A DNA stretch of 37,789 bases, from positions 1 to 37,789 of the forward strand of contig PAQF01000045.1 of assembly GCA_002709695.1 (NCBI GenBank). Reading direction: 5' to 3'. A program made the position numbers and the translations under genes. The DNA comes from Candidatus Poribacteria bacterium. Its GTDB lineage: Bacteria > Poribacteria > WGA-4E > UBA9662. Each line of letters opens with the position of its first letter. The stretch's first letter is position 1. A model generated the notes under the pieces. It was not told where the DNA came from. It did no database searches and saw nothing but the letters and a program-made list of their open reading frames with translations. Below, piece by piece: positions 4,835 to 37,789 of this stretch.

Positions 4835-5659
4835 ATGAGACGTCGTGAATTCTTTGTTAAAAACGGATACTGGGTTGAACCAGACCCACTATTTTCAGGA
4901 ACTGAGCTAAAAATGTATCAGCAATCAATGATGGAAATCATGAACCATAGATATAAATCAGGACGTGAACCAATGTCAGGCAGGAACTGGCCAAACCAAA
5001 CTGATTCAAACGGACTAATACAAATCAATAACGCCTGGTGGGCAGGAGGGGCCATCCGTGAACTTGCGTTAAATTCTCGTCTGGGAAAAATTGCGTCGGA
5101 ACTTCTACAGGCAAATGGCACTTGCATGTGGCACGATCAACTATTATACAAACCACCACGTTCAGTAGATGATCCAACTAAAGGTAATGTTGGTTGGCAC
5201 CAAGACTGGAACTACTGGAAGGTGTGCGACAAACCAGACATGATAACTGCTTGGGTAGCTTTAGATGATGTCAGGGTAGAAAATGGCGCTATGATGTTTG
5301 TTCCCGGAAGCCATAGGTGGAAACAAGCAATTAAAGCCTCAGATCGCACTCTGGACATGGAATACACACTCAGTCAAGTCAAAGTGCCAAAAGGCGAAAA
5401 ACTAGATATCGTCCACTGTGAACTGAAAGCTGGTTGTGTTAGCTTCCATCACGCAATCACTCTACATGGATCAGGTCCTAACCTCAGCCAAAAGCCAAGG
5501 ATCAGTTTAGCCATCCACATGGTTGCGGACCATGTGCGATATACTACAGCAAACAAAGCTTCTCACAGCAATCTGGAAGTATGTCCACGAGAAGAGAGCG
5601 AACTCTTTCGTGGAAAGCAACACCCAGTAATCTGGCAAAAAGCACCTCATGGTTACTAA
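4835..5659 (+). CDS. phytanoyl-CoA dioxygenase (PhyH) family Fe(II)/2-oxoglutarate oxygenase
   Basis: This 274-residue cytoplasmic oxygenase belongs to the PhyH family, whose members hydroxylate small molecules using Fe(II), O2 and 2-oxoglutarate. The iron triad is His122 and Asp124 in GWHQDWNYW plus His211 in LHGSGPN. Arg222 in PRISLAIHM is the expected 2-oxoglutarate carboxylate ligand. The core WVALDDVRVENGAMMFVPGSH (about 140-160) is typical of the family. Length is normal. It stands alone between the ABC ATPase (191-base AT-rich gap) and a convergent dehydrogenase gene 41 bases downstream. Its substrate cannot be read from the sequence. It is one of three PhyH genes in the window, and they are clearly different from one another. 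Confidence 0.9.
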   Translation: MRRREFFVKNGYWVEPDPLFSGTELKMYQQSMMEIMNHRYKSGREPMSGRNWPNQTDSNGLIQINNAWWAGGAIRELALNSRLGKIASELLQANGTCMWHDQLLYKPPRSVDDPTKGNVGWHQDWNYWKVCDKPDMITAWVALDDVRVENGAMMFVPGSHRWKQAIKASDRTLDMEYTLSQVKVPKGEKLDIVHCELKAGCVSFHHAITLHGSGPNLSQKPRISLAIHMVADHVRYTTANKASHSNLEVCPREESELFRGKQHPVIWQKAPHGY

Positions 5660-26260: not shown

Positions 26261-29200
26261 TTAACGTGCCTTATACACTTGGACACCTGCCTGAGAACTG
26301 CGACGCATCCGATCGAATTGCTCTATATTTGACGACTGGATTTTCTTATTTCTCATTTTTAGGTTCATCCGGTAATCGGTCGATTTTTGGAGTACCGGAA
26401 CGAACTGATTTTGTTTTCTTTTAGATCCTGTTCTCTTACCAATGACTTGAGTACCACGATAAAAAGCGTAACGATTCTCATTTGAGCGAGCAATGACGGT
26501 TGATTGACCACGTATGCCATCAGCGATAAAAACCCCTCGGAGATCCGTTTTTCCTGAAATGAATTTATCGTTCTCTGTACCAATAGCCTTAACATGAACT
26601 TTGGCAGCATAATTTCCCGTATTTTCGTCCTTTACGTTCACTCGAACACGACCACTGATTTGATCTTCCTGAACTTCGATCCGCAACGGTGTAATCAGTA
26701 CCAACCCACTAGTAAAGAGATTATCATCACCTCGGCAAATCACCAGATATGCTCCCTCTTTCGCTAACGACAGATCAATTGGCCGCGTTTTATCAGTGTA
26801 ATCTTTACCAATACCCAAGGTGAAATTTTCAGCAAATTGAGGTTCAATACCAGCTAATTTCACCTGTGTAATTTGGCTCAAATTCTTTTGGCGTAGATAC
26901 AGTTTCATAAGATCTACCTGGTAAACTTGGACTAAAGCTTCTTTAATATTTCGGTACTTTAATTGGATTTCGGCCTTTTCACTGGGATACTTGAACGTAA
27001 CTTCCGGCAAGGAAACCCTTTTTTGTTCGAAGTAATCAATTGACTCTTTAGCATCAGGGTAGATTAACTTCACCTGATTGTACCAATTGATAGCCTGCTC
27101 CGGATCTTTTTGAGCGTGATATATTTGCCCTAGAATGTAACGAGCGAGATCGCGGTCATCACTGTCTCCATTGGCTACCATCCGTGCTGATGCAATAGCC
27201 TGATCGTACTCACGCATGGAAAAGAATCCCAATGATTCAGCATACTGGAAACTACTGAGAAAATCACTCTCCGGATAACAAATCTGACCGACCTTAGCCA
27301 ATTGGACGGCTTGTCGAAAGTCTTCCACATCAAGCAGTACATTTATCAATGACAGTGTAGCGTCATCCACAAGTGGATTAATGGGATAAAGTGTGGAAAA
27401 TTGCCGCAATATGGCAGCCGTTTTTTCCAATAATCCCTTCCTCGAAATCAATAAATCAAGTTTATCTACCAATGGTACTTTTTCGTAAAGCGATTGAGAA
27501 ATTGCAAAGTAAACAGGAATGGTTATAGCTGTATCAGGATAATCACGCCATAGATCCTGCATAAACTCTATTGATTGCAGAAACTGTCCCTCATCCTGTA
27601 CCACAGCACTAATATTGGAATCCTTAGCGAAACTGGCATCGATAACAGCATTATAAACCAATGATGCACGCTCAAACTCACCCAAGTCACGATACGCTCT
27701 ACCCACCATCCGCATCTTTGAAAACGGAATATAGAGATCTGGTTCTTGCTCACGTAGCACTTCAAAAGTATCAATCGCTTTTCGGGCATCATAGTACCTA
27801 TCCGTAGCATAGATCCAGAGCAACATTTGTGCGACCTTTTTCTCCTGATACGATGAATTCCGTTGGCGTAGTTTTGCCAATAACGGCAGTGCTTCTGAAA
27901 AATGCTTATCCTCAAAATTAGATTTACCTAGTGTATAAAGCTCAGCATCGTTCATTTTATATAAATCTATAGATTTTTCACCCGGTGCTAAAACAGTAAA
28001 CGTAGAAGCAGATCCAATACGCATTCCACCCAATTGATCAACAGAACGAATCACAGTCGGTAAAATACGAAACACGCCAGGAGCATAACTAATCAATTGA
28101 TAACGAAAATCATTGATATAGTGTCTCGGTGGATAATAAAGCCGAATTACGCCATCCCCAATTTCATAATGCTTAAAATTACCAGAAATCGAATCCTTAA
28201 CCAATGTCGTTCCAGCAGGAAAGAACTCATCCACGATCAGGTACTGATTTTGGTAGCCAGACTTTATCTTGACCGAAACTTGTGATCGGTCTCCATTTGA
28301 GAGTTGAGTGAGCTTAGTAGAGCTATCAACACCAATAGGACTGCCATTATATGTCAATGGAGCGTGATAATAGTCACGACTAACAACATACGGCTCATCC
28401 CAAGATTTCGGATCATCAATTTCACCTGAAAAGCCACTCAGCATGGCAATATATGTATAACGACCACGACCATCAACCTGAAACTGAACTTTGTTTCTTC
28501 CATCAACCAACTTACCTAAAGGAACTTCAATAACCTGGTTTGCAGCTCGGTTTTTCATCTCATTGAATTGAATTTGATGATCGTTAACAAAAACGGTTAA
28601 ACGATAATCATCAGATGTAAATTGCGTCTGTTGATAAAAGATGGCAAGTGCTGCAACTATCACCCCTTTTGCTCGGTATGGCATAAAACCATAAAATTGC
28701 CTCCGAGAAATCAAGAAATCGACCGATTTAGCAATCCACGCAGAACTTGGATCTACCTTTTGGATTGCCAGTAGTGTCAAACCAATTGCCTCTATGTCAA
28801 TTATTTGATCGGCTTTTGGTGACAAAGTAAGACTGGAAATAACTGGGGCTAACAATTCCTGAGCAATCTGGTTTCGCCTTAGGTTTACAAAAGTCAGGGC
28901 GACATAGGCTAATCGATTGTAGTTCATGTTATGCCGACGTCGATAAAGCCGGTTAGCATAGGCAAAATCTGCCTTGCCAACAGTCGAAAGCGAATGAAGA
29001 ATAACGACCTTCGATTCGTCATCCTGATTAGCATTAACAAAGGCATTCTCAAGAAACTTGGTTGCATTTGTAAGCAACTGATCTTCAATAATAAGTCCAA
29101 CTCTTTTAGCTTCCGACAATGCCCACAGATTCTGAGCGGTTACTAAGGAATCACTTTCACCTTTTGCTCGGGGCCAACCGCCATCTCTATTCTGAGTCGG

Positions 29201-32200
29201 AATTAACCGGCCAATCAACACACGAGCCCGTTCAACCAAGTCACGGTTATCAGTAGCCAAACCGCCAGCTTTCTTAATATAATCTATGGCATAGGCAACT
29301 GCTAAAAGGTCGCTACCAGCATCGCTTGGCACAGGCATAATTCGTTGATAAAAAGGCCTAATGGCCCGACTTGAATAGAAATGGTTCATCGCCAAATCAT
29401 AAATCATTCGCTCAATACTTTGACCTAGACTGATCGAGAGTTTTTTTCTTCTGTAAGTTCGGTCTTTGGGTATTTCTAGAAATATGGTCTGGTTGTGACT
29501 ACCAGTACCAGACTTGGTATCAGTGTATTCCATACCCCACGGCTGTATGGGGATTTGGCGGCGTATGCCATCTGATATATTATCTGCCTTTGCTGTAACT
29601 TCAACAATAAGCTGATCTTCAGTAGGAACAGTAATGGGATCGAAAATAAAGTCGATGACATCCGAAACCTGAATCTGCACTGACTTCGCATAAGCCTGAC
29701 TGTTAACTTTCAGATGAACCGTAACTCGACCATTAAAGTCGGTTAAATTATGGATTTGTGCATTAATTCGCAACTGGTCACCTTCAGTCACTATCGATGG
29801 CAATTTTAGGTCAAGAAAGAAATCTTTTTTGGTAATGGCACCAACTTTAACCTGATCAACTAGTGTATCCATGGAACAACCATATACTGTCAACCGCCAT
29901 TTGGTTGTTTTTTCTGGCATCGGCACCTGTACCATGGCTCGCCCACGATCATCGGTTACAACAGATCCAATCCAGTATCCAACACCGCCAAATTCGTTTC
30001 GGAGCCGAGGCAACTCTCCCAGAGCTCTAGATCCACGATCAAACATCAGCCTATTAGAATGGGAAACTGCCGCTGCAGGTTTTCGGGCACGGGCATTATC
30101 CCTGACAGCATCCTCTTCGCTCAAAAGACCAAGTTGTGCAGAATACGATTTCACAGGTGCCTGCCTTTTACCCAATGCTCGCGCTCCAGGCATTTTCTCG
30201 AACTCTCTGAGCTTCTCTCTCGCGTTCTTGTCAGCACCAAGCCGCTTTTCTTCCTCCTGTATTTCCTTGATAACTGGACGAGTTAAGGGAGTATAACGAA
30301 ACTTGCAGCTGGAAACGGTACGCATGGCGTTTTCACGCCGTATACCAGCTTGGAAGAACTCTATAACCGGCATCAATCTATCAGGAAAAAGGGCGAAAAC
30401 AGCTTCCTCAACAAGTGCTAATGAAAATTCCGCCCGAACCGGTTTATCAAGCTGGTCTGTCGCCAAAATCTCAATATTAGCCACGTTGCCAGGTGCATAG
30501 ACGGGTATGGGGTCGAATCCGCCTTCCTGACGGCGCATAGTAATCTTCAACTGACGTTCAACAGTAAACTCTTTTTGTGTTGACAACAACTTTTGTTGAT
30601 CAATTGCCGAAACTGACAAGTAGAAATTTGGGAAGTATGAGTGACCAATTCGAAGTTGAATATGATTCCAGCCGGATTTCAAAAGTAACACCTGATAGGA
30701 TATCACTGCATCACCTTCAAAAGTAATCAAGGCCAGATTTTCCTCCAGCCGAGAGTGGATACGTACCATTTCCTCTGCCCCCACCTGCGTTGTCAGTTTA
30801 TCAGCAAAGATACGTAGCTTAATCTGATCAGTATCATCAGATACAATTACCTTTCCGGTGCTGACAACCGGTTGATCAAATTGGTCAGTCCCTCTAGTCC
30901 GAATCAGGTAATTCCCACCACGGTTAAGTGTTAACTGGATTTTACTTTGTCCTGTCCGTTGATCCGTTTCAACTTTTAGTGTTTCTACCAGCACGGTCGC
31001 TAGTTGTTGAGACGTTTTTACCCATGGGATTTTGTGAAGCACCGGATGGTCTGGCGAATCAGTTTTTCGCAGGACATCAACCTCCAACAACTGTCCTATC
31101 GGATTACCGTTGGCATCCACGGTGGTTATTTTTACCTCTAGTGGTTCTCCCGACAGCGAAACTTCAGCCAATGGTGCAATCTGAATCGAAAATCCAAGTT
31201 TTGCCAGAAAAACTGACGTAGCAACCACCACATTTTCACCTTCAATTGTCCCATTGAAACTAAGTGTTGAGCCTGGTAACTGGAGCGAAGTATCAAAAGT
31301 AATCTTGAGCTTACCTTGATCATCAGTTAGTTCCGTAAAGGTTTGACCATCTGGTAGAACATAACGAATAAGGGCTGACTTTACTGGCTGGCCATAATAA
31401 TAGCTCGCAGTAAAAGTTGCTTCTACTGTTTGATGACGAAAATATACTTGATGCGGAAAATCGAGAGTTAACTGCATTTTTTCGGTTTGAAAGCGCTGCA
31501 CTACAAAATTGCCATTGAATACTTTAGACAATTTCTGATCGGCTTTAACTTCAGTAACAATAATCCGATAGTCCCCAACATTGGCGTTCTGGTCAAGTAC
31601 CATCTGAGTGGTAAATGTTCCAAACTCAGAAAGTATAACCTCTTCTTCACGCAGGGCCCGCCCTTGTGCATCAATAATACTAAGTTTGTACATTGCATCC
31701 AAATCGATGGCATAAGACCCATGCTGAACATGACGGATAATCCCTCGAATCGAAACTGTATCACCAGGACGGTAGGTAGGACGATCAGTATAAATATAGC
31801 CTCGTGGTATCAGTCCTTTACTAAACTTTAATCCAACAAGATCAAGTCGGTCAGATGCCACATCACCATCCTTGATGACGAAAACACTAACTGAATTGCT
31901 TGATCTTAACTGATGGAGTTTCTGTTGAAAAACACCATCTTCACCTGTCTTCCCTTGCAAAATGATATTTTCACCATCACTGACAAGAACTGTTGCTTCC
32001 GAGACAGCACTACGATTAATCACATCCTGAACAAAAACCAGTACCTCACTGCGCGATGCCTTAATGATAGCCTCAATGTTACTACGAATTACCATAGTTG
32101 TAGATTCAAGATCCGTGTCACTCACCTGTACAGCGTAAACACCGGCCCCTTGAATTGGAATCTCAACGTTTTGTTCCATCGGCTTATACCTTTTATAATC

Positions 32201-33967
32201 CAAAACGGGGTGTTCCCACATTTGATTAGGAGTAATTAAAGCCAAATCAAGTTTCTCAATTCCGCTGATACTATGCATTTTTCGCCAGTAGGCTTCCAGA
32301 TCAATCTTATAGAGGCGAACTTCCAGTCTTTTGATGTTTCGAAGAGAAAGATCGATTTCCGCAGGTTCATTCGTGCGAAAGGTTCGTTTAGTAGTTAATT
32401 CCAACTGTTTTTCACTCATCTGTTGGATTCGGACTTTGGCCTGATCTTGCCAATCTCCCCAAGTTAGTTTTCGGTAAGACTCCAGTGCTTTTTCAAGCTC
32501 TCCCAACTTTTGTTCATACACTTGACCAATCTGAAAAAGGGCAAATGACGATTCTGCAGTGTTCGGGTACTTACTCACCAATCTTTCCCACTCCACAATG
32601 GCCGATCGGTAATCGGCTACTGCCTCCTGATTTTTCTCAGCTTGATGGACATACATTTGACCGTAGATAACCAGTATCTGCCGTATCCGCGGATCAAGAG
32701 GATGATCCTTTTCGAATTGCTGAAACGACGCAATTGTGTCATTATAGGCCTTATCAGCCAGCAGACTGATGCCGATTTGAAACTCGGCATCGATAATCCG
32801 TTGTTGAGCTCTCGTCCAATTCGGACCATTGGGAAAATTGGCCAGATACTGCTCCCAAGACAGGATTGCTTCTGCATACTTCTTTTGTCTAAATTGAAGT
32901 TCAGCAATGTAGAAGGTTGCCGACATTTGTTGATCTAAGATATCCAAATCCCCTGATGCTACCACCAGAAAATCCTGATAAGCGGAAATAGCGTTTTCAG
33001 TTTGCTTTAGGATCCGATAGCCTTCCGCAATTTCGAACATCAACTGCTTTGACCTTGGATCTCCCGAATAAGCGTCTATAAAATCTTCCGCAGCTTTGAT
33101 ACCCAACGCCAGTTCTTGGGCCGTTTCAGGTTTAGGAAAACGATAGGTACGAGTTAGGAGAAATTTGGCATCACTGATCAAATCGATGTATCTCTCCGAT
33201 TTTAATTCTGACAATGACTCCAACAAATCGACAACACCTAACTGGGCGTTTCGATGTTGATTCTGGCTTACTTCACATTCCGCGAGATGATATTTGGCTT
33301 GATAGTATCTCTGACCAGAGCCTGCATCAAAACGGTTTAGATAAACTTGATAATCCTTGATTGCCTGTGAGAATTTTCCTGCCAATTGCATCATCCTCCC
33401 CAAACGGTATGTCAATTCATTTTTCAAGTCATCACTAATCCCTAACCCCAAAGCATGCTGATAAAGATTGTGAGCTTTATCATAATTTGGCGGAGGGGCA
33501 TCCAGATCGTTTTCATCAGGTTGGCGTGAAACCTTTTCTGCCAAATCGATGTATGCTTGCGCTATACTGGACTTCCGATCTGGCGAGAGTAAGCGTGCCA
33601 ACTCAATATTATAAATGGCCTCAGCCGCAGAGAAATCCTTGAGATCAAAATAGCATTTAGCCTTTAGAAACGTTGCTTTCTGCAACCAAATTGAATCTGG
33701 ATGGTTATTCAACAATCGCTGACAGACATCAACCGACTGTTGGAATTCTCCTTTGTAAAACGAAGCCAGCGCTTTGAGATAAATCAGAAAATCGATTTTT
33801 TGGTCAGCTATTTTGAGCAGGCTATCGATTTGATCGATGGATCGGCCAAATTGCTTTGATTGGAGAGAGGTTTGGACAACATCAAGTGATTTTTCTGTCC
33901 CTTTTTCCGCCCAAACATTCAGGACGATAACAAAAACAAGCAACAAAGGACTTGTCCGGTTGAGCAT
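26261..33967 (-). CDS. giant TPR/alpha-2-macroglobulin-like secreted protein without thioester motif
   Basis: This 2568-residue exported protein has a signal peptide at 1-20 (no lipobox Cys). A long TPR-like region (about 30-530) is followed by macroglobulin-type beta domains from about 535. These include RNIKRLEVRLYKIDLEAYW (about 540-560) and GYIYTDRPTYRPGDTVSIRG (about 722-745). The A2M core begins at FGGVGYWIGSVVTDDRGRA (about 1332) and runs through TKWRLTVYG to the alpha-helical complement-like region. Where bacterial A2M has GCxEQ, this region near residue 1545 reads RIMPVPSDAGSDLLAVAYA, so the covalent trap is absent. From about 2009 a second TPR block and another MG-like module (AEIQLKYRNIKEALVQVYQV, about 2328) repeat the N-terminal arrangement. 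GGAGG precedes the ATG. A2M-like proteins trap proteases; a non-covalent or structural role is inferred. Confidence 0.87.
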   Translation of the reverse strand: MLNRTSPLLLVFVIVLNVWAEKGTEKSLDVVQTSLQSKQFGRSIDQIDSLLKIADQKIDFLIYLKALASFYKGEFQQSVDVCQRLLNNHPDSIWLQKATFLKAKCYFDLKDFSAAEAIYNIELARLLSPDRKSSIAQAYIDLAEKVSRQPDENDLDAPPPNYDKAHNLYQHALGLGISDDLKNELTYRLGRMMQLAGKFSQAIKDYQVYLNRFDAGSGQRYYQAKYHLAECEVSQNQHRNAQLGVVDLLESLSELKSERYIDLISDAKFLLTRTYRFPKPETAQELALGIKAAEDFIDAYSGDPRSKQLMFEIAEGYRILKQTENAISAYQDFLVVASGDLDILDQQMSATFYIAELQFRQKKYAEAILSWEQYLANFPNGPNWTRAQQRIIDAEFQIGISLLADKAYNDTIASFQQFEKDHPLDPRIRQILVIYGQMYVHQAEKNQEAVADYRSAIVEWERLVSKYPNTAESSFALFQIGQVYEQKLGELEKALESYRKLTWGDWQDQAKVRIQQMSEKQLELTTKRTFRTNEPAEIDLSLRNIKRLEVRLYKIDLEAYWRKMHSISGIEKLDLALITPNQMWEHPVLDYKRYKPMEQNVEIPIQGAGVYAVQVSDTDLESTTMVIRSNIEAIIKASRSEVLVFVQDVINRSAVSEATVLVSDGENIILQGKTGEDGVFQQKLHQLRSSNSVSVFVIKDGDVASDRLDLVGLKFSKGLIPRGYIYTDRPTYRPGDTVSIRGIIRHVQHGSYAIDLDAMYKLSIIDAQGRALREEEVILSEFGTFTTQMVLDQNANVGDYRIIVTEVKADQKLSKVFNGNFVVQRFQTEKMQLTLDFPHQVYFRHQTVEATFTASYYYGQPVKSALIRYVLPDGQTFTELTDDQGKLKITFDTSLQLPGSTLSFNGTIEGENVVVATSVFLAKLGFSIQIAPLAEVSLSGEPLEVKITTVDANGNPIGQLLEVDVLRKTDSPDHPVLHKIPWVKTSQQLATVLVETLKVETDQRTGQSKIQLTLNRGGNYLIRTRGTDQFDQPVVSTGKVIVSDDTDQIKLRIFADKLTTQVGAEEMVRIHSRLEENLALITFEGDAVISYQVLLLKSGWNHIQLRIGHSYFPNFYLSVSAIDQQKLLSTQKEFTVERQLKITMRRQEGGFDPIPVYAPGNVANIEILATDQLDKPVRAEFSLALVEEAVFALFPDRLMPVIEFFQAGIRRENAMRTVSSCKFRYTPLTRPVIKEIQEEEKRLGADKNAREKLREFEKMPGARALGKRQAPVKSYSAQLGLLSEEDAVRDNARARKPAAAVSHSNRLMFDRGSRALGELPRLRNEFGGVGYWIGSVVTDDRGRAMVQVPMPEKTTKWRLTVYGCSMDTLVDQVKVGAITKKDFFLDLKLPSIVTEGDQLRINAQIHNLTDFNGRVTVHLKVNSQAYAKSVQIQVSDVIDFIFDPITVPTEDQLIVEVTAKADNISDGIRRQIPIQPWGMEYTDTKSGTGSHNQTIFLEIPKDRTYRRKKLSISLGQSIERMIYDLAMNHFYSSRAIRPFYQRIMPVPSDAGSDLLAVAYAIDYIKKAGGLATDNRDLVERARVLIGRLIPTQNRDGGWPRAKGESDSLVTAQNLWALSEAKRVGLIIEDQLLTNATKFLENAFVNANQDDESKVVILHSLSTVGKADFAYANRLYRRRHNMNYNRLAYVALTFVNLRRNQIAQELLAPVISSLTLSPKADQIIDIEAIGLTLLAIQKVDPSSAWIAKSVDFLISRRQFYGFMPYRAKGVIVAALAIFYQQTQFTSDDYRLTVFVNDHQIQFNEMKNRAANQVIEVPLGKLVDGRNKVQFQVDGRGRYTYIAMLSGFSGEIDDPKSWDEPYVVSRDYYHAPLTYNGSPIGVDSSTKLTQLSNGDRSQVSVKIKSGYQNQYLIVDEFFPAGTTLVKDSISGNFKHYEIGDGVIRLYYPPRHYINDFRYQLISYAPGVFRILPTVIRSVDQLGGMRIGSASTFTVLAPGEKSIDLYKMNDAELYTLGKSNFEDKHFSEALPLLAKLRQRNSSYQEKKVAQMLLWIYATDRYYDARKAIDTFEVLREQEPDLYIPFSKMRMVGRAYRDLGEFERASLVYNAVIDASFAKDSNISAVVQDEGQFLQSIEFMQDLWRDYPDTAITIPVYFAISQSLYEKVPLVDKLDLLISRKGLLEKTAAILRQFSTLYPINPLVDDATLSLINVLLDVEDFRQAVQLAKVGQICYPESDFLSSFQYAESLGFFSMREYDQAIASARMVANGDSDDRDLARYILGQIYHAQKDPEQAINWYNQVKLIYPDAKESIDYFEQKRVSLPEVTFKYPSEKAEIQLKYRNIKEALVQVYQVDLMKLYLRQKNLSQITQVKLAGIEPQFAENFTLGIGKDYTDKTRPIDLSLAKEGAYLVICRGDDNLFTSGLVLITPLRIEVQEDQISGRVRVNVKDENTGNYAAKVHVKAIGTENDKFISGKTDLRGVFIADGIRGQSTVIARSNENRYAFYRGTQVIGKRTGSKRKQNQFVPVLQKSTDYRMNLKMRNKKIQSSNIEQFDRMRRSSQAGVQVYKAR

Positions 33968-34017: not shown

Positions 34018-34875
34018 TTAACATTCAACGTCTTTGCCTTCACTACCAAAGATCTCAAGCCGTGCTTCGGTAGTAATGGTAGTTGCACACGCAGGACGAT
34101 AATGAAACTGCAGAGCACGACGTTGGTCCTGTGAGAAGTTAGCCGGTGTGCCATGGTGCATTAACCCATGGAAAAAGAGACACCCTCCTGGATCTAAGGG
34201 AACCATGGTGTCGTTTTCCCCACTAACGTCGGTATCACAAATCTGCCAATCCCTTTTTTTAAAATGGGTCATCGGCTCTTTATGTGAACCAGGAACAATG
34301 TGCATACATCCATTTTCAGGTGTCGCTTGATCAAGAGCAATCCAAACCCCAACCACTATTGTCCCCAAGGGATAGTTAAAATAGGCACAATCTTGATGCC
34401 ACGGTTTCTCGGACCCAAAATCACGCGGTTTCAGCAAAGCCATATCCTGTAAGAAAAGCGGTTCATCATCCATCAAACGGGCTAACACTTGTAAAAGATC
34501 TTGATTATAAAACATAGAGCTCAGATGAGAATCATAATCGATAAAACCATGAATCTTTCGAGTAGCCTTACGTTTTTCTGATTCCGAAAACGTTGCTAGA
34601 TACTTATGTAATTTTGGTTCGATTTGCACACCATTAAAATCTGGGCACTTACCATCAATTAGATCGTAGATAGAGTGCTTTGCTAATTCTATATTGTTCT
34701 GATCGAAAGCATCATGAACTACCAAATATCCCTGATCATGGAAGAACTGAAGATCAGTATCAGTAACATTCCCAAATCCACCTTCAATTGATTCAGAAAT
34801 ATTAGTGTAATGATACAATTCTGGTGGATACGCTACCTCTTTCAGAGACTGAATAAGACCTTCATCCCAACTCAT
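34018..34875 (-). CDS. phytanoyl-CoA dioxygenase (PhyH) family Fe(II)/2-oxoglutarate oxygenase
   Basis: This 285-residue oxygenase has iron ligands His160 and Asp162 in KPWHQDCAYF and His241 in MHHGTPANFS. Arg253 in QRRALQFHY is a likely 2-oxoglutarate ligand. WIALDQATPENGCMHIVPGS is the standard family core. I chose ATG 34875 (MSWDEGLIQ) rather than an in-frame ATG at 34938 because GGGGAGG lies about 8 bases upstream. It is the first gene of the long minus-strand run and ends 50 bases before the A2M-like gene. A third PhyH gene is divergent from it, 360 bases away. Confidence 0.9.
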   Translation of the reverse strand: MSWDEGLIQSLKEVAYPPELYHYTNISESIEGGFGNVTDTDLQFFHDQGYLVVHDAFDQNNIELAKHSIYDLIDGKCPDFNGVQIEPKLHKYLATFSESEKRKATRKIHGFIDYDSHLSSMFYNQDLLQVLARLMDDEPLFLQDMALLKPRDFGSEKPWHQDCAYFNYPLGTIVVGVWIALDQATPENGCMHIVPGSHKEPMTHFKKRDWQICDTDVSGENDTMVPLDPGGCLFFHGLMHHGTPANFSQDQRRALQFHYRPACATTITTEARLEIFGSEGKDVEC

Positions 34876-35235
34876 ACTGTATACCTCCCCTAGCAGATTC
34901 AGATTCCAGATTCTAACATGGAGAACCCAGCATGTCAACGATAGGCATAATAAAGAAAATCAGCATAACAAAAGCGCATTTTCCTACTTTTTGGGCAGTC
35001 CCTGATCGTATCCATTGGCCGTGTGGCACTCACAAGAGTAAGTAGGATATAATATTTATTATGCTCGGCATTTCAACCTTAATCTACGTAGACTATAGTA
35101 AAACTAATTCGACTTCGACACAACTACAACAGAAACTTAACATAGCCAACAAGAGAAATGCCGAAAAAGCCTATAAAACCAACTTGACCATCAGCAAAGA
35201 CAAAACTTCAGGCATCACCACAAGAGGAGAATAAA
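34876..35235. other. 360-base region between two divergent PhyH genes
   Basis: A perfect TATAAT (35048-35053, plus) lies 187 bases before the downstream PhyH start, but no convincing -35 box is at the right distance. A 57-codon frame opens at ATG 35061, immediately after that box, and ends at TAA 35234, one base before the GTG of the PhyH gene. It is rich in Thr, Asn and Lys, has no ribosome binding site and resembles nothing I know. Confidence 0.4.
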
Positions 35236-36027
35236 GTGAAATCCGCCATCCGAATTTCCGATCAGCAGAAGCTACAGTTTAAAACAGACGGATATTTTGT
35301 GCTAGAAAGCGTCATCCCCGATCAATTTTTGAACCTACTTCGTGGCCAATGTCAAAGTTTTATCGATCAAATAGATGTTGAAATGGATCAGCAAGGTACT
35401 GATGTAATGGGAATTAATCATCGTAACAAAAGATATTTCGTCGCGAATTGCTTCCGGAAACAACCAGAGCTCCGTCAATTTTTATTTAGTAACATGATGG
35501 CCGAGATCTGTCGTGCCACACTCGGCGAAAACGTATACCTTTTTTGGGAACAGTACGTGGTAAAAGGCGCGAGAGAAGGAATGGCGTTTAGTTGGCATCA
35601 GGACTCAGGTTATATTGGTTACCCTGATCATAAACCCTACTTGACGTGCTGGTGTGCATTAGATGATATGTCAGAAGAAAATGGTACTGTGTATGTGATG
35701 CCTTTTTCTCATGTTGGGATTCGATCATGGGTACAACATATCCGCGATGAAGGTACAAATGACCTGATAGGTTACTTTGGGCGTGATCCCGGAATACCGG
35801 TTATTGTCCCTGCGGGCAGTATTGCGGTATTTACCAGTATCAATTTCCATTCTAGTGGCACCAATGAAACTGGTGAATTACGTCGTGCATATCTTGCACA
35901 GTATTCGGCCGAACCGCTTTTAAGTCGTGATCAGACGAGGTTATGGGGCAATGCAGAACCGTTACTTATTAATGGTAAAATGGCTGTGGGGACACCCCCT
36001 CCAAACATATCTTCTAACTTCAAATAA
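35236..36027 (+). CDS. phytanoyl-CoA dioxygenase (PhyH) family Fe(II)/2-oxoglutarate oxygenase
   Basis: This 263-residue oxygenase has iron ligands His121 and Asp123 in FSWHQDSGYIGY and His205 in NFHSSGTN. Arg216/217 in ELRRAYLAQY is a likely 2-oxoglutarate ligand. CALDDMSEENGTVYVMPFSH is the conserved core. It starts with GTG (MKSAIRIS) directly after an AGAGGAGAAT ribosome binding site. It is followed 80 bases later by a zinc-type dehydrogenase on the same strand, so a hydroxylation and an oxidation step on one substrate are possible (inference). Confidence 0.9.
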   Translation: MKSAIRISDQQKLQFKTDGYFVLESVIPDQFLNLLRGQCQSFIDQIDVEMDQQGTDVMGINHRNKRYFVANCFRKQPELRQFLFSNMMAEICRATLGENVYLFWEQYVVKGAREGMAFSWHQDSGYIGYPDHKPYLTCWCALDDMSEENGTVYVMPFSHVGIRSWVQHIRDEGTNDLIGYFGRDPGIPVIVPAGSIAVFTSINFHSSGTNETGELRRAYLAQYSAEPLLSRDQTRLWGNAEPLLINGKMAVGTPPPNISSNFK

Positions 36028-37187: not shown

Positions 37188-37216
37188 TTGACACTACCCT
37201 ACCGGGGGGTTAGTAT
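37188..37216 (+). promoter_or_regulatory. promoter-like region overlapping an RcnR/CsoR-type operator
   Basis: TTGACA (37188-37193), 17 bases and TAGTAT (37211-37216) form a sigma70-like promoter. Between the boxes lies TACCGGGGGGTTAGTA (37200-37215), close to the RcnR site I recall as TACT-G6-N-AGTA. The same segment is an imperfect inverted repeat (37193-37214, 8 of 11 pairs). It sits directly before the CsoR-family gene, fitting autoregulation. One problem: the -10 box overlaps the proposed ATG (37215), so either the start codon or the promoter assignment is off. Confidence 0.55.
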
Positions 37217-37496
37217 GACAACTAGTTCTCATAACCATACCAACACAAAACAAATCGCCAATCGGCTCTCAAAAATCGAAGGTCATGTTCGAAGCATTAA
37301 AGAGATGGTATTATCTGGGCGGGATTGTTCGGAAATCTTAATCCAAATTGCAGCCGTACAGTCAGCCTTACAAAAAACCGGGAAAGTCATTCTCGAAGAA
37401 CATCTGGAACACTGCATCGTTGAAGCAATCCAAGAAAATGACCAAAAAGAACCTCTTGATAAATTCAAAGATGCTCTGGCGAAGTTTATTCGTTAA
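37215..37496 (+). CDS. CsoR/RcnR-family metal sensor repressor, InrS-like (probable nickel)
   Basis: This 93-residue all-alpha DUF156-family DNA-binding repressor contains the family signature NRLSKIEGHVRSIKEM, which binds GC-tract operators until metal binds. The candidate metal residues are His6, Cys38 (GRDCSEIL), His63 and Cys67 (EEHLEHC). Their spacing of +32, +25 and +4 is identical to that I recall for InrS (H21, C53, H78, C82; Ni) and differs from RcnR (H3, C35, H60, H64) only at the last ligand. CsoR copper sensors share C-H-C but not the N-terminal His. I chose ATG 37215 over TTG 37188, which lies in the promoter-like element. The His-rich gene follows 30 bases later. Confidence 0.87.
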   Translation: MTTSSHNHTNTKQIANRLSKIEGHVRSIKEMVLSGRDCSEILIQIAAVQSALQKTGKVILEEHLEHCIVEAIQENDQKEPLDKFKDALAKFIR

Positions 37497-37526: not shown

Positions 37527-37781
37527 ATGCATGAAGGCGGACATGGAATCCTAGACGGAATCAAGAAAAAGCATCACAGCCATGATCACGATCATGACCA
37601 CAACCATGACCATGACCACAACCATGACCATGACCACAACCATGACCACAACCATGACCACAACCATGACCACAACCATGACCATGGATCAAGCTTCGCT
37701 ACCAAGGTTTCCGCTGGCATCATAACAGCCGCAATCATTGTAGCCTTTATTCTATGGAAATGGTTCCTTCCAGCCAATTGA
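37527..37781 (+). CDS. His-rich single-pass membrane protein, probable metal-binding partner of the InrS-like regulator
   Basis: This 84-residue protein has 22 histidines. After a Lys-rich start (KKKHHS, 13-18) residues 19-54 are almost only His, Asp and Asn in units HDHDHDHN, HDHDHN twice, HDHN three times and HDHG. A C-terminal hydrophobic helix (about 61-81, VSAGIITAAIIVAFILWKWF) anchors it in a membrane. His tracts of this kind bind Ni, Co, Zn or Cu. It lies 30 bases after the CsoR/RcnR-family gene and is probably co-transcribed. No catalytic domain is present; buffering, delivery or export of metal is inferred. A full transporter may follow beyond the window edge. Confidence 0.8.
   Translation: MHEGGHGILDGIKKKHHSHDHDHDHNHDHDHNHDHDHNHDHNHDHNHDHNHDHGSSFATKVSAGIITAAIIVAFILWKWFLPAN
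37581..37688 (+). repeat. in-frame tandem repeat encoding His-Asp/His-Asn units
   Basis: An 18-base unit (CATGACCATGACCACAAC) occurs twice (37605-37640), then a 12-base unit (CATGACCACAAC) three times (37641-37676), flanked by degenerate copies. All are in frame, so copy-number change would lengthen or shorten the metal-binding tract without breaking the gene. Confidence 0.9.
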
Positions 37782-37789
37782 ACAAGGAA

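Follow-up and report, generated by a model that had tools for sequence, protein, structure and literature searches.

The window analysed here is the entire contig C45 (37,789 nucleotides) of a 5.2-Mb Candidatus Poribacteria genome. It also encodes a protein of 2568 residues (26261-33967, reverse strand) which has repeats close to its start and a large region of extracellular type, and which by eye resembles alpha-2-macroglobulin-like proteins, as well as three apparent members of the phytanoyl-CoA dioxygenase (PhyH) family, at 4835-5659 (forward), 34018-34938 (reverse) and 35236-36027 (forward). Close to its end lies a gene for a small regulator which an initial annotation had taken, from the spacing of its cysteine and histidine residues, to be a nickel sensor. 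The question raised by the locus is which signal this protein answers to and which genes it governs.

The regulator and its candidate ligands

The reading frame at 37215..37496 (forward strand) encodes 93 amino acids and scores 96 bits against the DUF156 profile PF02583 (cut-off 22.8), with profile positions 2-78 of 78 covered. Its assignment to the CsoR/RcnR family of metal-sensing repressors is thus borne out, and it is the only PF02583 member in its own genome. The nearest named relative of that genome, Candidatus Poribacteria UWMA-0119, carries a copy which is 89% identical. The AlphaFold2 monomer (pLDDT 89) has the family fold, with predicted helices at 11-33, 38-74 and 78-92 and a disordered N-terminal tail, and Foldseek ranked InrS (5FMN) first against this model, followed by Geobacillus CsoR. 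The annotated start is probably safe, because the only other canonical starts are an upstream TTG at 37188 and Met31, which falls within helix 1, and because the homologue L046 begins MSHQH.., immediately ahead of the W-position histidine. There is no canonical in-frame start between His6 and Met31. A start downstream of His6, named in the initial annotation as a danger to its reading, was rejected on that ground.

By alignment, the metal-ligand positions W, X, Y and Z are occupied by His6 (codon 37230..37232), Cys38 (37326..37328), His63 (37401..37403) and Cys67 (37413..37415), all on the forward strand, ie the same His-Cys-His-Cys set as in the InrS group. The spacing of +32, +25 and +4 given for these residues was found in the sequence, and so was the correspondence to InrS: residues 6-92 align by phmmer without a gap to residues 21-107 of InrS (5FMN), placing H6, C38, H63 and C67 on H21, C53, H78 and C82. 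His63 is retained in 33 of 33 aligned clade members. The residue before Cys38 is Asp37, not the tyrosine found at this A position in Cu(I) sensors (PMC4235346), and Cys67 is directly preceded by His66, as in NreA (PMC12724321). The allosteric glutamates of InrS at positions B (E98) and C (E95) are replaced by Lys83 and Pro80.

His6 is followed by a second tail histidine, His8. Among 74 homologues without the A-position tyrosine, a sample biased toward the window protein since it served as the query, W is histidine in 57 (77%), and the histidine fractions at positions -34, -32 and -30 are 0.74, 0.77 and 0.65. The N-terminal tail therefore reads, from sequence, as an alternating H-x-H-x run in which the W histidine is not a unique column, so that the tail accounts for part of the exact spacing. 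The pattern at W-X-Y-Z has in any case been reported not to be predictive of the metal: S. aureus CsoR, a Cu(I) sensor, has a W histidine, and nickel binding persists in InrS H21L, while a tyrosine just ahead of the X cysteine is a predictor of Cu(I) sensors (PMC4235346). In a later XAS study, described in the review PMC7055735, H21 emerged as a nickel ligand of InrS. That copper-sensing CsoRs lack the N-terminal histidine, as had been stated, is consequently not a rule. Naming the metal from H-C-H-C alone was rejected, both on the published counter-examples (PMC4235346) and on the alternating tail. The argument from the fingerprint to nickel was thus too strong and fails, but nickel is still favoured on independent evidence given below. 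As a general caution, a Cys/His fingerprint is by itself unfit for naming a metal.

Operator, neighbouring genes and the contig break

A predicted operator, the G-tract pseudopalindrome CTACCCTACCGGGGGGTTAG, lies directly upstream of the gene at 37194..37213 (forward strand). Allowing up to 3 mismatches, the genome contains no second copy, and other Poribacteria have related sites ahead of their versions of the gene: a C3-4 N3 G5-6 core precedes 8 of the 9 copies that are not Tyr-type, the window included. In relatives of the same class, G080, G077 and G075 (L103, L101 and L104), the published NreA consensus TATCCYCtccrgGRGGATA is matched with 1, 2 and 2 mismatches respectively, where about 0 to 0.01 matches are expected by chance; these sites have the same arms as the type-1 operator of NreA. 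The window operator agrees with the consensus at 13 of 19 positions by eye, which is poorer than in the class relatives, and it has the core in common but not both arms. The site at the Tyr-type CsoR paralogue of G021 is a different one and reads CCCACCCCGTAGGGGGTGGG. In G075, two tandem NreA-like sites stand upstream of the regulator (L104 4797-4815 and 4865-4883).

Around the operator is a promoter-like TTGACA-17-TAGTAT (37188..37216, forward strand), a consensus match and not proof of a promoter, as 2 such matches were found and 1.7 expected. In the NreA layout a TTG is followed 20 bp on by TAGNAT with the operator between, and the TTG, operator and TAGTAT of the window match that arrangement. 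The sister genome L018 has near-identical geometry, with its -10 one base ahead of the start codon. The NreA message is leaderless and its ATG lies downstream of the -10, whereas the ATG of the regulator overlaps the -10-like hexamer, so that a transcript from this match would begin inside the gene. Either the match arose by chance, or a longer mRNA is the template for the regulator and the two genes that follow are expressed from this promoter.

The regulator is followed at 37527..37781 (forward strand) by a reading frame for an 84-residue microprotein with the N-terminus MHEGGHGIL, a His-Asp/Asn-His repeat and, by eye, one likely transmembrane helix. The histidine run is encoded by a 12-bp tandem repeat of 9.2 copies (37575..37684, forward strand), whose length varies among genomes; complete microproteins in related genomes range from 43 to 84 residues. 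The microprotein gave no match above the curated cut-offs of Pfam and NCBIfam and none in the plasmid collection. Matches to Pfam ZIP and NCBIfam DmeF fell below those cut-offs, were caused by the histidine run and were rejected. So was the notion that the frame is an isolated repeat artefact, as its N- and C-termini are conserved, it is present in several genera, and the changes between two genomes show a synonymous excess (3 synonymous to 1 non-synonymous, and 12 to 8). In two genomes the ATPase described below itself opens with MHEGGHGIL.

The contig ends 8 bases past the microprotein, soon after the repeat. This is not the end of the operon, a reading which was rejected because contig C72 of the same genome begins in the same repeat (G000:C72:1-235), has the last 102 bases of the window in common with one mismatch, and then runs on into an ATPase gene. 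The repeat pattern of C72 differs from that at the end of the window (37575-37789), which suggests strain variation in the histidine tract. The joined gene order is regulator, histidine-rich one-helix microprotein, and a P1B-type ATPase of 673 residues on C72. Related genomes keep the microprotein at this place, between csoR and the gene for the ATPase: the same order is found in G001/L018, G021, G077, G079 and G080 and, up to the contig ends, in G082 and G075.

The ATPase, likewise conserved in related Poribacteria, carries CPC and HNISS motifs but no HMA domain and no MxxSS. It is 33% identical to the HMA-bearing, CopA-like pump (MMSFSS) encoded on C28 of the same genome, upstream of which no such operator was found. 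It passes the cut-offs of both the cadmium model (458 bits) and the copper model (425 bits), the CPC site being common in copper and in zinc/cadmium pumps, and its best PDB match, 7QBZ, is titled 'cadmium translocating P-type ATPase'. In G080 the ATPase is followed by a CDF-family cation exporter nearest to the ZitB (zinc) and DmeF (cobalt/nickel) models, both below cut-off, and in G021 a second CsoR, of Tyr type, stands beside a CopA with two HMA domains.

Known relatives and a proposed mechanism

In a maximum-likelihood tree the regulator falls inside the InrS-containing group with support 99/86, in an alignment of few columns that leaves many forks unresolved. That group leaves out Geobacillus Cu-CsoR, the other Tyr-type CsoRs, CstR, RcnR and FrmR.

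The Synechocystis protein InrS (5FMN), the Ni(II)-responsive repressor of nrsD, resembles the regulator in fold, in gapless alignment, in the H-C-H-C residues, in the missing A-position tyrosine and in clade, and the structural match has about 41-43% identity. The regulator is nevertheless not a copy of InrS, as it is without both the B and C glutamates, and its partners are a P1B ATPase and a microprotein instead of the NrsD exporter. A second close counterpart is NreA of Mesorhizobium C089B, a 93-residue nickel-responsive repressor of nreAXY, with a metal pocket of C38, H63, H66 and C67 and DNA contacts that include R17 and Q44 (PMC12724321). Compared by the published numbering, all six residues recur at the same numbers in the regulator; NreA R20 is Lys20, and near the position of NreA K91 the regulator has Lys90. 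The NreX and NreY exporters are absent after the regulator, the next genes being those for the microprotein and the ATPase. RcnR of E. coli, the nickel- and cobalt-responsive repressor of rcnA, belongs to the same family and has a W histidine at -32 (His3), Cys35 and His60, but its Z ligand is His64 in place of Cys67, its identity is 30%, and it stands on a separate branch with FrmR. The Cu(I)-responsive CsoRs of M. tuberculosis and Geobacillus have the same fold and the same Cys-His-Cys at X-Y-Z; they differ in the Tyr-Cys at A-X and the glutamate at B, where the regulator has Asp37 and Lys83, and in branch. CstR is without the Y histidine that the regulator has in His63.

Building on what was observed directly, ie the sequence, the monomer fold, the clade, the conserved operator and the conserved gene order, we infer the tetramer, the metal, the direction of the response, the specificity of the pump and the role of the microprotein as follows. 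The apo tetramer would bind the operator at 37194-37213 and block its own operon, comprising the regulator, the microprotein and the C72 ATPase. Cytosolic metal, most likely Ni(II), would then fill sites made of Cys38' of one subunit and His63 and Cys67 of another, with His6 and perhaps His66 assisting. The metal-filled repressor would leave the DNA, the pump and the metal-binding microprotein would be made, and the metal would be exported. There is good support for the protein being a metal-sensing repressor that controls an efflux operon and with it its own synthesis. The full statement, that it is an InrS/NreA-like, metal-responsive autorepressor of this operon with Ni(II) as the most likely effector, we consider probable, though by no means securely so.

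As a relative of known nickel sensors the regulator is rather ordinary, and the pair of microprotein and ATPase is the less ordinary part. The locus might even represent a novel nickel efflux system, in which an InrS/NreA-like sensor is joined to a P1B ATPase of an unassigned class (CPC, last-helix HN[IA][SA]S, no N-terminal metal-binding domain) and to a new family of one-helix HEGGHGIL microproteins with an expandable histidine tract, which may pass nickel on to the pump. We regard this larger proposal as possible but doubtful. With this regulator, the part of the CsoR/RcnR family that does not sense copper reaches into Poribacteria and is tied there to a metal pump and to a histidine-rich membrane microprotein outside the family databases searched. 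Should the effector prove to be nickel, the P1B ATPase would be an added type of exporter under InrS/NreA-like control. The earlier remark that no such sensor had been described in this lineage is consistent with our literature search.

Which metal

Our best guess at the effector is nickel, on the strength of the InrS clade, the lack of an A-position tyrosine, the NreA-like residues and operator, and the gene neighbours; other divalent metals come next and copper is less likely. Beside clade members in other phyla are genes for nickel-dependent LarA (L021, 578 bits, cut-off 460), CODH/ACS subunits (L086) and CbiM cobalt/nickel importers (L043 and L057), and also, among others, for MATE and EamA transporters. 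This survey, which covered the loci of clade members alone, is not uniform, and supports nickel or cobalt for part of the clade. The literature holds no metal measurement that we could find for any member of the regulator's own subclade. Searches of its own genome for HypA and CbiM found neither. LarA-like proteins are present there: LarA N-terminal domain proteins are encoded at G000:C63:30976-31588, C86:19701-20174 and C28:5636-6136, one of them split over two frames, and these are possible nickel-pincer enzymes. For nickel we further counted the CDF exporter in G080, the separate copper-type ATPase on C28 and the copper context of the Tyr-type CsoR in G021; against it, the missing B and C glutamates, the CPC pump, the cadmium and copper model scores, the lack of HypA and CbiM, the weaker operator match of the window and, as weak evidence, the title of 6AHX (see below).

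The same autorepressor and operon could respond to another divalent metal (Zn, Cd or Co), with the ATPase a Zn/Cd/Co-type exporter. The better score of the pump with the cadmium model than with the copper model, its match to 7QBZ and the ZitB and DmeF likeness of the G080 transporter all fit this reading, which we nonetheless think unlikely, as the operator and the ligand numbering resemble those of the nickel sensor NreA. To our knowledge no characterised native CsoR/RcnR member senses zinc or cadmium in cells, which also counts against it; an engineered FrmR, E64H, reportedly senses Zn(II) and Co. InrS does bind Zn(II) and Co(II) in vitro (PMC4235346; PMC7055735). A CsoR-like role in sensing Cu(I), with the operon serving copper efflux, appears decidedly improbable. 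The Cys-His-Cys at X-Y-Z is that of copper CsoRs, S. aureus CsoR shows that a W histidine is compatible with copper (PMC4235346), and the ATPase has CPC. Set against these are the Asp in place of Tyr before Cys38, Lys in place of Glu at B, the position of the regulator outside the Geobacillus CsoR group, and a pump devoid of HMA domains and MxxSS when a typical CopA with both is encoded elsewhere in the genome; moreover, it is the Tyr-type CsoR of G021 that has the copper context, together with a different operator. The least credible reading, to which we attach hardly any weight, is a sensor of a small reactive molecule (persulfide, as for CstR, or formaldehyde, as for FrmR) in which the metal site is a relic. 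CstR does have the X and Z cysteines, and FrmR the X cysteine and the fold, but both lie outside the clade, the invariant His63 of the clade is lacking in CstR, and the operon partners are a metal pump and a histidine-rich peptide.

The closest solved sequence, 6AHX (88 bits), is titled a copper-sensing regulator, 'CsoRGz', and has H-C-H-C and an Asp before the Cys, as does the regulator. No paper behind it and no published effector for it were found in the literature search, so that the title is weak evidence for copper. In the tree it groups with a plasmid protein of S. aureus encoded beside a MATE transporter. On the conjugative S. aureus plasmid pJ01-01 (L131, 3992-5629), an H-C-H-C regulator with 57% identity lies next to a MATE transporter gene, between copies of IS257.
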